Source: Fibrobacteria bacterium AD312 (GTDB lineage Bacteria > Fibrobacterota > Fibrobacteria > Fibrobacterales > Fibrobacteraceae). Taken from it: a DNA stretch of 64,000 nt. A program made the position numbers and the translations under genes. This document shows positions 27,397 to 30,956 of this stretch, one piece after another; the stretch's first letter is position 1, and every line of letters begins with the position of its first letter. The notes under the pieces were generated by a model, which saw only the letters and a list, made by a program, of their open reading frames with translations, did no database searches and had not been told where the DNA came from. The stretch is taken from contig LIUM01000049.1 in assembly GCA_001462345.1 (NCBI GenBank), positions 1 through 64,000 on the forward strand, read 5' to 3'.

Positions 27397-28137
27397 ATGT
27401 CATATTTTAAAGAAGCTGAATTCAATTTTAAAAACTTATCTACAAATTCTTATCCTGGAAGGGGCATTGTCTTAGGGACAAGTCCCTGTGGTCGTTTTGA
27501 CGTTCAAGTATACTGGATTATGGGGCGTAGTGTAAATAGCCGTAATCGTATTTTTGTCATAGATCAAGATACTAATTTTATGAAGACACAAGCTTTTGAT
27601 GAATCCAAATTAGTCGATCCTAGCTTGATTATTTATTACCCAGCTAAGCATACAAATGATTATCATATCATTACTAATGGCGATCAAACAGATACTGTTT
27701 ATGATACCATGCAAAATGGTGGGTCTTTTGAAGAGGCTCTAAATACACGTTGTTATGAACCAGATGGCCCAAATTTTACTCCAAGAATTTCTGGTATTAC
27801 TTATAGAAATGCAAATCCTGCTGTATATAAGCTTTCGATTCTTAAATCCCGTTCTAATAATGAAGAAGCAGGCTGTGAAAGACAGTTTTTCTCTTACGAA
27901 AAGAAAATGCCTGGTTTAGGGCATTTTATTTCTACTTATAAAACAGATGGTAACCCTATCCCTAGTTTTAGTGGTGAACCACAGCTTGTTCCTATTGCAA
28001 ATACTCCTCAAGAAACATTAGATACGTATTGGAACGCATTAAATGAAACGAATAGAGTTTCTTTGATGGTCAAGTGGATTGATTCGAATTCTTTCAAAAG
28101 TGAAATAGGGGTTCGAAACAAAATGGGCTCATTATGA
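27397..28137 (+). CDS. IMP cyclohydrolase, PurO-like family
   Basis: A 246-residue cytoplasmic protein. The N-terminal block YPGRGIVLGTSPCGRFDVQ with YWIMGRSVNSRNRIFV, and later DPSLIIYYPA, ITNGDQTDT and NFTPRISGI, match the IMP cyclohydrolase family first known from archaeal PurO and found in some anaerobic bacteria. Its reaction is ring closure of FAICAR to IMP, the last step of purine synthesis, which most bacteria do with the C- or N-terminal halves of PurH. If that is its job, this genome should have no complete purH, or a transformylase alone. The stop overlaps the next start (ATGA). Confidence 0.82.
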   Translation: MSYFKEAEFNFKNLSTNSYPGRGIVLGTSPCGRFDVQVYWIMGRSVNSRNRIFVIDQDTNFMKTQAFDESKLVDPSLIIYYPAKHTNDYHIITNGDQTDTVYDTMQNGGSFEEALNTRCYEPDGPNFTPRISGITYRNANPAVYKLSILKSRSNNEEAGCERQFFSYEKKMPGLGHFISTYKTDGNPIPSFSGEPQLVPIANTPQETLDTYWNALNETNRVSLMVKWIDSNSFKSEIGVRNKMGSL

Positions 28138-29234
28138 AAAAGAAAAAAACATGGAACACTCCTGCGGCAAGAGCGGTTGGCAGAACAAAAGAAGAAGATA
28201 TTCGTTTTGTTTTAATAGAGATTGCTAAGGGCCGTCATCAAGCATTAAGGCAATTGGACAAGTTATTTGATCTTCTTGGTAATCAGTTAGATAAAATAGA
28301 TGAAGTCAAGTCTCCAAAAGTCCAGTTAGAGCTTTTAGCATGGTTTTTAAGTACAGATCACGTTCTTGCAGATGTCGAAGAAGATGATGAGTTTTTTGAT
28401 TTGTATGCAGATGCGAGTGCCTTTTTTATTGATATAGCAAGAGATTTTGAAGACAAAAAATGGATTATGGATTTAGTACACGATCTTGCTGTTCGTCATA
28501 CTGGAGAAGATGGAAGAGCTGCTGTATTTCTTTCATTAACTGAATTTTTAGATGCTGCAAGTGCTCTTGAAATGGTAGAGTCTATTTTAGAAACGGTACG
28601 AAGTCAAGATTTAGAAAATGAAGAAAATGTCTTAGAAGCGCTGCGTGATATGGCCGATGGGCTTAATGTGCCAGCGGTTTATGAAAAAGCAAGTTTCTTA
28701 TTAGATTTAGATCGTAGCCACGAAACGATTTTAGATGTCGCCAATGCGTATTATATTGCTGGCGATTTAGTGGAAACAAAGAGGCTTCTTTCAGAAGTGC
28801 GAAACCCAATAGGTAAAGACGAAGAAGAATTTTTAGACCTTTCTGTGGCTTGCGCTCATAAAGAAGGCGATCTTCCTCGTGCCATTAAGTTTGCTGAAGT
28901 ACTTTACGAAAAATTTCCTAAAGAATTTAATTTGGCTCGTTTAACTCAGATTGTACCAGCTAAACAAGCTGAATTTCTATTAGATGAACATGAAAAATAT
29001 CGTTTAGGCGATGTTTTAAATGAAAATTATATTGATTTATTGATTTCACTTGAAAAAATAGATCGTCTTAAGGCTTATATTAATCGTTTTGAACAAGATT
29101 TAGCTGGAGTGAACCCAGAAGTTTTATCTCGTTTTGTAGAAAGATTAGAAACGATGAATCAAAAAGAATTAGCCGATCAAATACGTCAATGGATTGTGGA
29201 TGAACCAGAAGAAGTAGACGTAGAAGATCTATAA
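28134..29234 (+). CDS. Acidic, helical repeat-like protein of unknown function
   Basis: A 366-residue soluble protein, strongly acidic and nearly all helical by composition, with helix pairs that suggest TPR- or HEAT-like repeats (for example ILDVANAYYIAGDLVETKRLLSEV and FLDLSVACAHKEGDLPRAIKFAEVLYEKFP). The first 20 residues are basic (MKKKKTWNTPAARAVGRTKEE). No signal peptide or catalytic motif is seen. It overlaps the IMP cyclohydrolase gene by 4 bases, so the two are translated together. I do not recognise a named family. Confidence 0.6.
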   Translation: MKKKKTWNTPAARAVGRTKEEDIRFVLIEIAKGRHQALRQLDKLFDLLGNQLDKIDEVKSPKVQLELLAWFLSTDHVLADVEEDDEFFDLYADASAFFIDIARDFEDKKWIMDLVHDLAVRHTGEDGRAAVFLSLTEFLDAASALEMVESILETVRSQDLENEENVLEALRDMADGLNVPAVYEKASFLLDLDRSHETILDVANAYYIAGDLVETKRLLSEVRNPIGKDEEEFLDLSVACAHKEGDLPRAIKFAEVLYEKFPKEFNLARLTQIVPAKQAEFLLDEHEKYRLGDVLNENYIDLLISLEKIDRLKAYINRFEQDLAGVNPEVLSRFVERLETMNQKELADQIRQWIVDEPEEVDVEDL

Positions 29235-29397: not shown

Positions 29398-29862
29398 ATG
29401 AAACGAATTAAAAAAAGTTTTATCAAACGTTCTAATGCCTTTATTGGATATCTTTTAGCCATTTTAGGCTTTGGTAGTATTTCTCTTACTGGTTGTGATT
29501 CTCCAGTAGATCCAGATCCTGTAGCAGAATATGGTGTTCCTTATGCCATTTTTAAGGTCAAAGGGAAAGTAACTTCAGAAACAGTAGGAATCCCAAATAT
29601 TAAAGTGAAAATGGGCTCAAATTCTTTTTTCTATGATTCCACATATACAGACGCCAATGGGGAATATGAAATTTCTCAAGGAGCGTTTCCTTCGAATCAA
29701 GCTTTTGATTTGTCTTTTGAAGATATAGATAGCACTCAAAATGGCTCTTTTCAACCTTTAGATACTATTGTTGAGTTTGTGGATCCAAAGTTTACTGGTG
29801 GATCAGGCAATTGGAATGAAGGGGAAACAAAAACGACTTTTAATGTAGAATTAAAGGAATAA
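29398..29862 (+). CDS. Lipoprotein of the radical-SAM/lipoprotein system
   Basis: A 154-residue protein. A long basic N-terminus (MKRIKKSFIKRSNAFIGYLL) leads into a hydrophobic segment and lipobox SLTGC near 33. The mature part is a carboxypeptidase-regulatory-like beta-sandwich (FKVKGKVTSETVGIPNIKVKMG, YDSTYTDANGEYEI). The extended pre-lipobox region and immediate linkage (2-base gap) to a SPASM-type radical SAM gene match the rSAM/lipoprotein pair described in Bacteroides-type genomes (TIGR04133/TIGR04134, recalled from memory). What the enzyme does to the lipoprotein, if anything, is unknown. Confidence 0.75.
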   Translation: MKRIKKSFIKRSNAFIGYLLAILGFGSISLTGCDSPVDPDPVAEYGVPYAIFKVKGKVTSETVGIPNIKVKMGSNSFFYDSTYTDANGEYEISQGAFPSNQAFDLSFEDIDSTQNGSFQPLDTIVEFVDPKFTGGSGNWNEGETKTTFNVELKE

Positions 29863-29864
29863 AA

Positions 29865-30956
29865 ATGAAGACAACACCTCTTCCTTTCAAGAAGAAGCTT
29901 GCTCTAAAACTTTTTAATCGTTATCGTGCCAATGAAAAAAGTACACATGTTTTAAATTACCTTTTTTGGGAATGCACCTTACGGTGTAATCTTAATTGTT
30001 TGCATTGTGGCAGCGATTGTAAAAAAGAGGCCGTTGTTCCAGATATGCCTAAAGCTGATTTTTTTAAGGCATTAGATGATATTACTCCAATTATTACACC
30101 CAATGAGACCATGATTGTACTCACTGGAGGGGAACCTGTTTTACGAAAAGATATTCTTGAAATAGGGCAAGAACTTTATCGTCGTGGATTCCCTTGGGGG
30201 ATTGTTTCAAATGCGATGGCTCTTCAACCAAAAACAATTGATCTTTTAATGGATGCAGGGCTTCGCTCTATTACGATTAGTTTAGATGGTTTAGAAACGT
30301 CTCATAATTGGTTGAGAAATAGTAAACAAAGTTTTAAAAAAGCAATGAAAATCATTGCCTATTTGAATCAAGTGAAAGATGTACGATATGATGTAGTCAC
30401 TTGTGTAAATCAGAAAAACCTTGAAGAACTTGATTTATTATATGATTTGCTGGTTTCTTTAGGCTTAAAAGAATGGAGAATCTTCACGGTATTTCCTGTT
30501 GGTCGAGCTCAGTTATATCCTGAATTACAATTGCTGCCTAAACAGTTTAAAGACTTTTTTGATTTTATGGCTCGAGTGCGTAAAGAAGGGAAAATCAAAC
30601 TAAACTACGGTTGTGAAGGCTTTCTTGGCAACTACGAAGGGCTTGTGAGAGACAATTTCTTCTTTTGTCGAGCGGGAATTAATATTGCTTCTGTTTTAGT
30701 AGATGGTTCGATCTCTGCGTGCCCTAATTTGCGTAGTCGTTTTATACAAGGCAATATCTATAAAGATAGCTTTAGAGAAGTTTGGGAATCTCGTTATGGA
30801 ATTTACAGAAACCGTAGTTGGACAAAAACGGGAATATGTAAGGATTGCGAGTATTATAGTTTCTGCGAAGGCAACGGTATGCATCTTCGAAATGACGAAA
30901 CAGGCGAATTAATGTTTTGCCATTTGAAACGTCTTCTAGAGGCTGAAGAAAATTAG
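29865..30956 (+). CDS. Radical SAM/SPASM enzyme of the rSAM/lipoprotein system
   Basis: A 363-residue enzyme. The [4Fe-4S]-SAM motif C41-x3-C45-x2-C48 lies in CTLRCNLNCLHCGSDC, followed by the GGEPVL motif near 88 and SISLDGLE-type strand motifs. The C-terminal third is a SPASM domain binding extra iron-sulfur clusters (CRAGINIASVLVDGSISACPNL, then CKDCEYYSFCEGNG and a final MFCHL). SPASM enzymes usually modify ribosomal peptides or proteins. The lipoprotein encoded 2 bases upstream is the obvious partner. The stop codon region abuts the convergent rpiA end with a 4-base overlap. Confidence 0.88.
   Translation: MKTTPLPFKKKLALKLFNRYRANEKSTHVLNYLFWECTLRCNLNCLHCGSDCKKEAVVPDMPKADFFKALDDITPIITPNETMIVLTGGEPVLRKDILEIGQELYRRGFPWGIVSNAMALQPKTIDLLMDAGLRSITISLDGLETSHNWLRNSKQSFKKAMKIIAYLNQVKDVRYDVVTCVNQKNLEELDLLYDLLVSLGLKEWRIFTVFPVGRAQLYPELQLLPKQFKDFFDFMARVRKEGKIKLNYGCEGFLGNYEGLVRDNFFFCRAGINIASVLVDGSISACPNLRSRFIQGNIYKDSFREVWESRYGIYRNRSWTKTGICKDCEYYSFCEGNGMHLRNDETGELMFCHLKRLLEAEEN

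Follow-up and report, generated by a model that had tools for sequence, protein, structure and literature searches.

The gene pair and its setting

Within the window, the whole 64,000-nucleotide stretch of a Fibrobacteraceae genome (Fibrobacteria bacterium AD312) that we analysed, a gene for a 154-aa lipoprotein (29398..29862) is followed by one for a 363-aa radical SAM/SPASM enzyme (29865..30956), both on the plus strand, as are all features of the pair given below. Two bases separate the lipoprotein stop from the enzyme start, and the ORF coordinates confirm the adjacency described in the initial annotation. A ribosome-binding-site-like AAAGGA (29853..29858) precedes the enzyme ATG, and rpiA lies directly after the enzyme gene on the opposite strand. 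Families were assigned with NCBIfam curated models at their own cut-offs and domains with Pfam. The lipoprotein, a putative substrate, belongs to TIGR04134 (94.8 bits, cut-off 39.8, E 4.9e-27) and the enzyme to TIGR04133 (560.4 bits, cut-off 425, E 1.3e-168). What had been described as a resemblance to the rSAM/lipoprotein system is in fact full membership: both genes score far over their cut-offs and the pair is a true TIGR04133/TIGR04134 member rather than a look-alike, with the same adjacency and gene order and no structural difference from that system, in a Fibrobacterota host.

The lipoprotein begins with a signal peptide or putative leader (residues 1–32; 29398..29493) that carries the basic extension noted earlier: MKRIKKSFIKR, then a hydrophobic core and LTG-C33. 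Gly24, in the motif LGF, is kept in 44 of 45 family members and Lys10 in 30, and residues 2–29 form a helix in the AlphaFold2 model (mean pLDDT 89). The codon of the lipobox cysteine, Cys33, lies at 29494..29496, and the cysteine is present in 43 of 45 homologues. Beyond it, a flexible linker ends at Glu44-Tyr45-Gly46-Val47-Pro48 (29527..29541), just before the first strand of a beta-sandwich body (29542..29859) of the transthyretin/carboxypeptidase-regulatory-like type, for which Foldseek matches transthyretin-like and CnaB-like domains and Pfam gives a weak PF13620 match.

In the enzyme, Pfam recognizes Radical_SAM and SPASM domains. The cluster motif C41-x3-C45-x2-C48 with a GS-D-C52 extension (29985..30020) and the seven cysteines of the SPASM region (C250, C268, C286, C325, C328, C334 and C352; PF13186; 30612..30920) occupy invariant columns of a 21-row alignment, bearing out the description of the cluster motifs as intact.

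The pair had also been placed outside Bacteroidetes. The host genome is indeed Fibrobacterota, with a Fibrobacter sp. (G057) as a same-genus relative, but a Treponema saccharophilum plasmid carries the pair already annotated by name, and the window copy itself probably came from Bacteroidota. In an enzyme tree of 76 rows, built by a quick method with no bootstrap, the window enzyme and its G057 orthologue fall inside Bacteroidota beside Mariniphaga (SH-aLRT 98 and 97). The host genome has a second TIGR04133 gene, on contig C12, which clusters with other Fibrobacter enzymes. Because the window enzyme nests inside Bacteroidota and is 69–70% identical to Mariniphaga homologues versus 54% to its own-genome paralogue, the simplest reading is that the pair was probably acquired laterally; the lipoprotein is about 50% identical to its Mariniphaga homologues. 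Genes flanking the pair on either side match those of the window in G057, spread over two contigs. A genome of a related genus (G145) retains the upstream order groEL-groES-lipoprotein-IMP cyclohydrolase-366-aa gene and has no pair after the 366-aa gene, an unrelated convergent gene standing there instead. In the window, the IMP cyclohydrolase-like protein (27397–28137; PF07826, E 2e-53), encoded close to groES and to a family-restricted gene, has NCBIfam scores far under the purO cut-offs, and the 366-aa protein (28134–29234), present in 6 of 13 related genomes, has no Pfam or NCBIfam match.

A Tyr-Gly motif shared by the enzyme's partners

Among 247 Bacteroidales genomes, TIGR04133 occurs in 52 and TIGR04134 in 33, with both in 32 (6.9 expected, p 2e-25), such that 32 of the 33 genomes with the lipoprotein also have the enzyme. 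TIGR04134 over cut-off is missing from 20 enzyme-bearing Bacteroidales genomes, which we attribute, from a reading of the gene neighbours, to the enzyme having several kinds of partner. These include the window-type beta-sandwich lipoprotein; Ser- and Cys-rich Fibrobacter lipoproteins starting MFYKHWKK...FFWxxC; non-lipoproteins, secreted and ending in a sorting-like C-terminus, from other Fibrobacterota families (L080–L090); and short, apparently disordered Bacteroidota lipoproteins (L109, L112, L132 and L137). They share an N-terminal signal or leader and one to five copies of the motif [LEKM]-Tyr-Gly-x-Pro. The initial annotation had considered that the enzyme might be found with other partners in most genomes, and in Fibrobacterota this is literally so: TIGR04133 is over cut-off in 89 of 168 genomes and TIGR04134 in 5. 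Yet these other partners carry the same Tyr-Gly (YG) motif, which strengthens the idea that they are substrates and makes lipoprotein status non-essential.

We rejected TIGR04134 as the sole partner, the Fibrobacterota enzyme mostly adjoining other proteins, and likewise the notion that a partner must be a lipoprotein, as the partners at L080–L090 and L161 have a signal peptide without a lipobox. Enzymes that seemed partnerless proved to have a YG protein downstream (L161, L201) or on both sides (L152), and most of the others lie at contig edges or have a YG protein slightly past the search distance.

A family alignment of 45 window-type lipoproteins, run as had been proposed to find invariant residues, singles out Tyr45, Gly46 and Pro48, each conserved in 44 of 45; the residue before Tyr-Gly is Glu in 32, and Ala and an aromatic residue at +5 and +7 are conserved along with the Pro at +3. 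YG is present in 120 of 123 signal-bearing ORFs adjacent to the enzyme, the misses being one ORF that is spurious, one copy with a frameshift, and L015, a Fibrobacter partner with a YG lipoprotein one gene farther away. In a set of 56 partner representatives, no pair of which reaches 40% identity, YG occurs in 53 (22.3 expected), and it is the most enriched of all 400 dipeptides in partners (103 versus 29.0 expected from shuffles). Of the three representatives with no YG, one is the spurious ORF, one is the copy with a frameshift and the third reflects a wrong ORF choice at L183, where the real partner has five YG and AKYGVITPPKDSV repeats. Lipoprotein-like ORFs of the same genome (400 kb plus the window) showed no such enrichment (20 versus 26.0 expected), and a smaller control of 10 such ORFs gave the same outcome (11 versus 10.2 expected). 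One TIGR04134 paralogue (L142) lacks YG.

The motif is retained in partner bodies with no homology to one another, with the consensus [PA]-[LEKM]-Y-G-[VTC]-P around the site. The own-genome paralogue on C12 adjoins a lipoprotein with four LYGV sites, and Fibrobacter TIGR04133 partners contain IALYGVP and IALYGPP. On this pattern of conservation and enrichment, YG is in all likelihood the modified site, and the two genes most probably form a functional unit in which the enzyme modifies the lipoprotein at Tyr45-Gly46. The proposal that the enzyme acts on the lipoprotein is thereby supported by the pairing and by the conserved site, but being a lipoprotein appears dispensable for a substrate. A third partner had been suggested as well; a survey of 50 dissimilar loci, which compared ORFs of 70 aa or more, found no recurrent third gene or protease, and no non-partner gene appeared in more than two loci.

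A candidate reaction and its alternatives

The best non-self NCBIfam family of the window enzyme is TIGR04103 (140.3 bits, under the cut-off of 725), although heme b synthase (136 bits) and the GDL family (131 bits) score near it. We take TIGR04103 to be the PlpX family, partly from the anatomy of a Nostoc plasmid locus, where a nif11 precursor with the core SIALYGLPPELF and the end GGRGSIALYGLPPELF (IALYGLPPELF) is accompanied by an enzyme annotated as TIGR04103 and a 71-aa ORF of PlpY size. The window enzyme shares with TIGR04103-type enzymes, as with Agathobacter and some Fibrobacter enzymes (the latter at about 230 bits), the HCGS that follows the cluster motif, W204 and A270, all of which are rare or absent in a small outgroup sample of eight enzymes; Gly49-Ser50 in particular is common to PlpX-like enzymes and nearly missing from the same eight.

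PlpX (IPR026482; PMC11002830) is a splicease that recognizes XYG and excises tyramine (PMC10533398; PMC10373908). Natural PlpXY sites are MYG or LYG, as in RPLYGLPI and AAMYGVVFP, and a Gly-variant tag, AVAAxYGVVFP, has been described (PMC10533398). The window system resembles PlpXY in its radical SAM/SPASM enzyme, its X-Tyr-Gly site with matching flanking preferences and the possibility of several sites per substrate. It differs in that a whole protein is exported, either a lipoprotein or another secreted protein, here with a lipoprotein signal peptide; in that X is mostly Glu in window-type lipoproteins rather than Met or Leu; and in that the enzyme is 28% identical to a PlpX-family member and scores under the TIGR04103 cut-off. 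PlpY is described as falling short of the size that a normal recognition-element fold requires (PMC12710340), and next to the window enzyme no PlpY-like helper gene was found. Nor did the window substrate show a nif11/NHLP leader, NCBIfam giving TIGR04134 only.

Taken together, the XYG context, the similarity to TIGR04103, the YG-adjacent related enzymes and the shared HCGS, W204 and A270 make a splicease the leading hypothesis. We consider it reasonably probable that the two genes form a post-translational maturation unit in which X-Tyr-Gly undergoes a splicease-like modification before export. The cytoplasmic enzyme would bind the nascent lipoprotein, with the unusually conserved N-region and signal helix of the latter as the probable point of contact; the conserved N-region and Gly24 suggest that this helix serves recognition as well. 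The enzyme would then modify Glu44-Tyr45-Gly46 while the protein still awaits Sec export and the attachment of lipid to Cys33. Splicing would remove tyramine (C8H9NO, ~135.07 Da) and form a keto-beta-residue, and by analogy with PlpX we judge this chemistry at XYG somewhat probable. Since radical SAM enzymes are cytoplasmic, the modification must precede Sec export, an order of events that is very likely. The proposed step would add a cytoplasmic radical modification, ahead of export, to a precursor of the same class as those matured by Lgt, LspA and Lnt. Once the protein is exported and lipidated, about eleven residues would separate the lipid from the edited residue, and the mature protein would be envelope-anchored with an electrophilic keto-beta-residue just outside its lipid anchor. 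Spliceotide products are reported as protease inhibitors (PMC11117315; PMC10373908), making an anchored inhibitor a plausible role and a reactive attachment point another; either would be a tentative assignment by analogy.

The same substrate and YG site could instead undergo another Tyr-centred radical chemistry, such as a C-beta or ring cross-link, epimerisation or cleavage without rejoining, which we regard as rather unlikely. SPASM enzymes of similar fold (SuiB, SkfB, ChlB and anSME) have many chemistries, the identity to a PlpX-family member is low, and the conserved Pro at +3 and Ala/aromatic residues at +5/+7 could serve a cross-link. However, a cross-link partner should be invariant, whereas the surroundings of YG vary across partner families, including the short disordered ones, and the context of the site matches splicease cores. 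We dropped an attempt to classify the reaction by structure, as the enzyme model matched general SPASM folds (SkfB, SuiB, PqqE and anSME) that are uninformative for chemistry.

Readings in which YG is not the site of modification fare less well. The lipoprotein might be an accessory or carrier, or YG a docking element, with the true target of the enzyme elsewhere; some SPASM systems do have non-substrate partner proteins, but this is improbable here given that no other gene recurs by the enzyme, that YG copies vary from one to five with repeats, as is typical of multi-site substrates, and that partner bodies are interchangeable. Still less credible is a structural role for YG in a common lipoprotein fold, with the pairing due to operon inheritance only: the window YG does adjoin the first beta-sandwich strand, but YG is kept where that fold is missing, both in bodies that are Cys-rich, Ser-rich, repetitive or disordered and in C-terminal tails.

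Significance and related systems

The pair is a member of an existing family, and what is added here is a candidate modification site and a candidate reaction. In the literature searched, with Scott et al. 2022 and Richter et al. 2024 outside its scope, we found no reaction or site for TIGR04133/TIGR04134. A family pair with no named reaction thus becomes testable, with a specific residue, a specific reaction and an expected shift in mass to look for, in an enzyme family that roughly one in five of the Bacteroidales sampled (52/247) and about half of the Fibrobacterota sampled (89/168) possess. More broadly, TIGR04133 enzymes could be spliceases that act alone, installing alpha-keto-beta-amino acids at XYG in exported lipoproteins and secreted proteins across Bacteroidota, Fibrobacterota, Spirochaetota and Neomarinimicrobiota, a generalization that we hold to be evenly poised. 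If true, backbone splicing would extend beyond small secreted peptides to membrane-anchored envelope proteins of gut and rumen bacteria, which would display an edited backbone as anchored electrophiles, and new XYG-directed, apparently helper-free enzymes could become available for protein labelling. Should the chemistry prove different, the predicted site would still ease the search for the true reaction.

Several related loci came to light alongside the family. Three Fibrobacter genomes (G129, G076 and G105; L176, L177 and L178) encode 485–495-aa radical SAM enzymes (about 230 bits against TIGR04103); the neighbouring proteins, which have 12–15 YG, mostly in KYGYP repeats, and no obvious signal peptide, are candidate multi-site splicease substrates. 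Other Fibrobacter loci (L171–L175 and L190) have TIGR04133-like enzymes (~275 bits), and the zinc-ribbon-like protein that comes after them carries a single IYGPP, replaced by VYAPP at L175. On an Agathobacter rectalis plasmid (L198, ~2190–2400), an unannotated small ORF ending GPVMYGTGVRM lies just upstream of a radical SAM gene and, in this human gut bacterium, may encode a spliceotide-like precursor.

The GDL-motif/DUF1843 system (TIGR03913) has a related enzyme, as its score above indicates, and peptides with Y-[G/A/M] near the N-terminus; unlike the window substrate, these peptides are multi-copy, lack a signal peptide and do not conserve the Gly. On Aureibacter and Azospirillum plasmids (L202 and L203), DUF1843 peptides lie by GDL-type enzymes and have Tyr followed by Gly, Ala or Met N-terminally, a pattern that suggests a Tyr-centred modification there too. 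With YA or YM standing in for YG in some of the GDL/DUF1843 and zinc-ribbon partners, Gly would not be needed across this wider group. Finally, on a Tropicibacter oceani plasmid (L207), a radical SAM gene overlaps phosphotransferase and trypsin-like peptidase genes, with an M23 metallopeptidase gene coming next, in what may be a peptide-modification operon.
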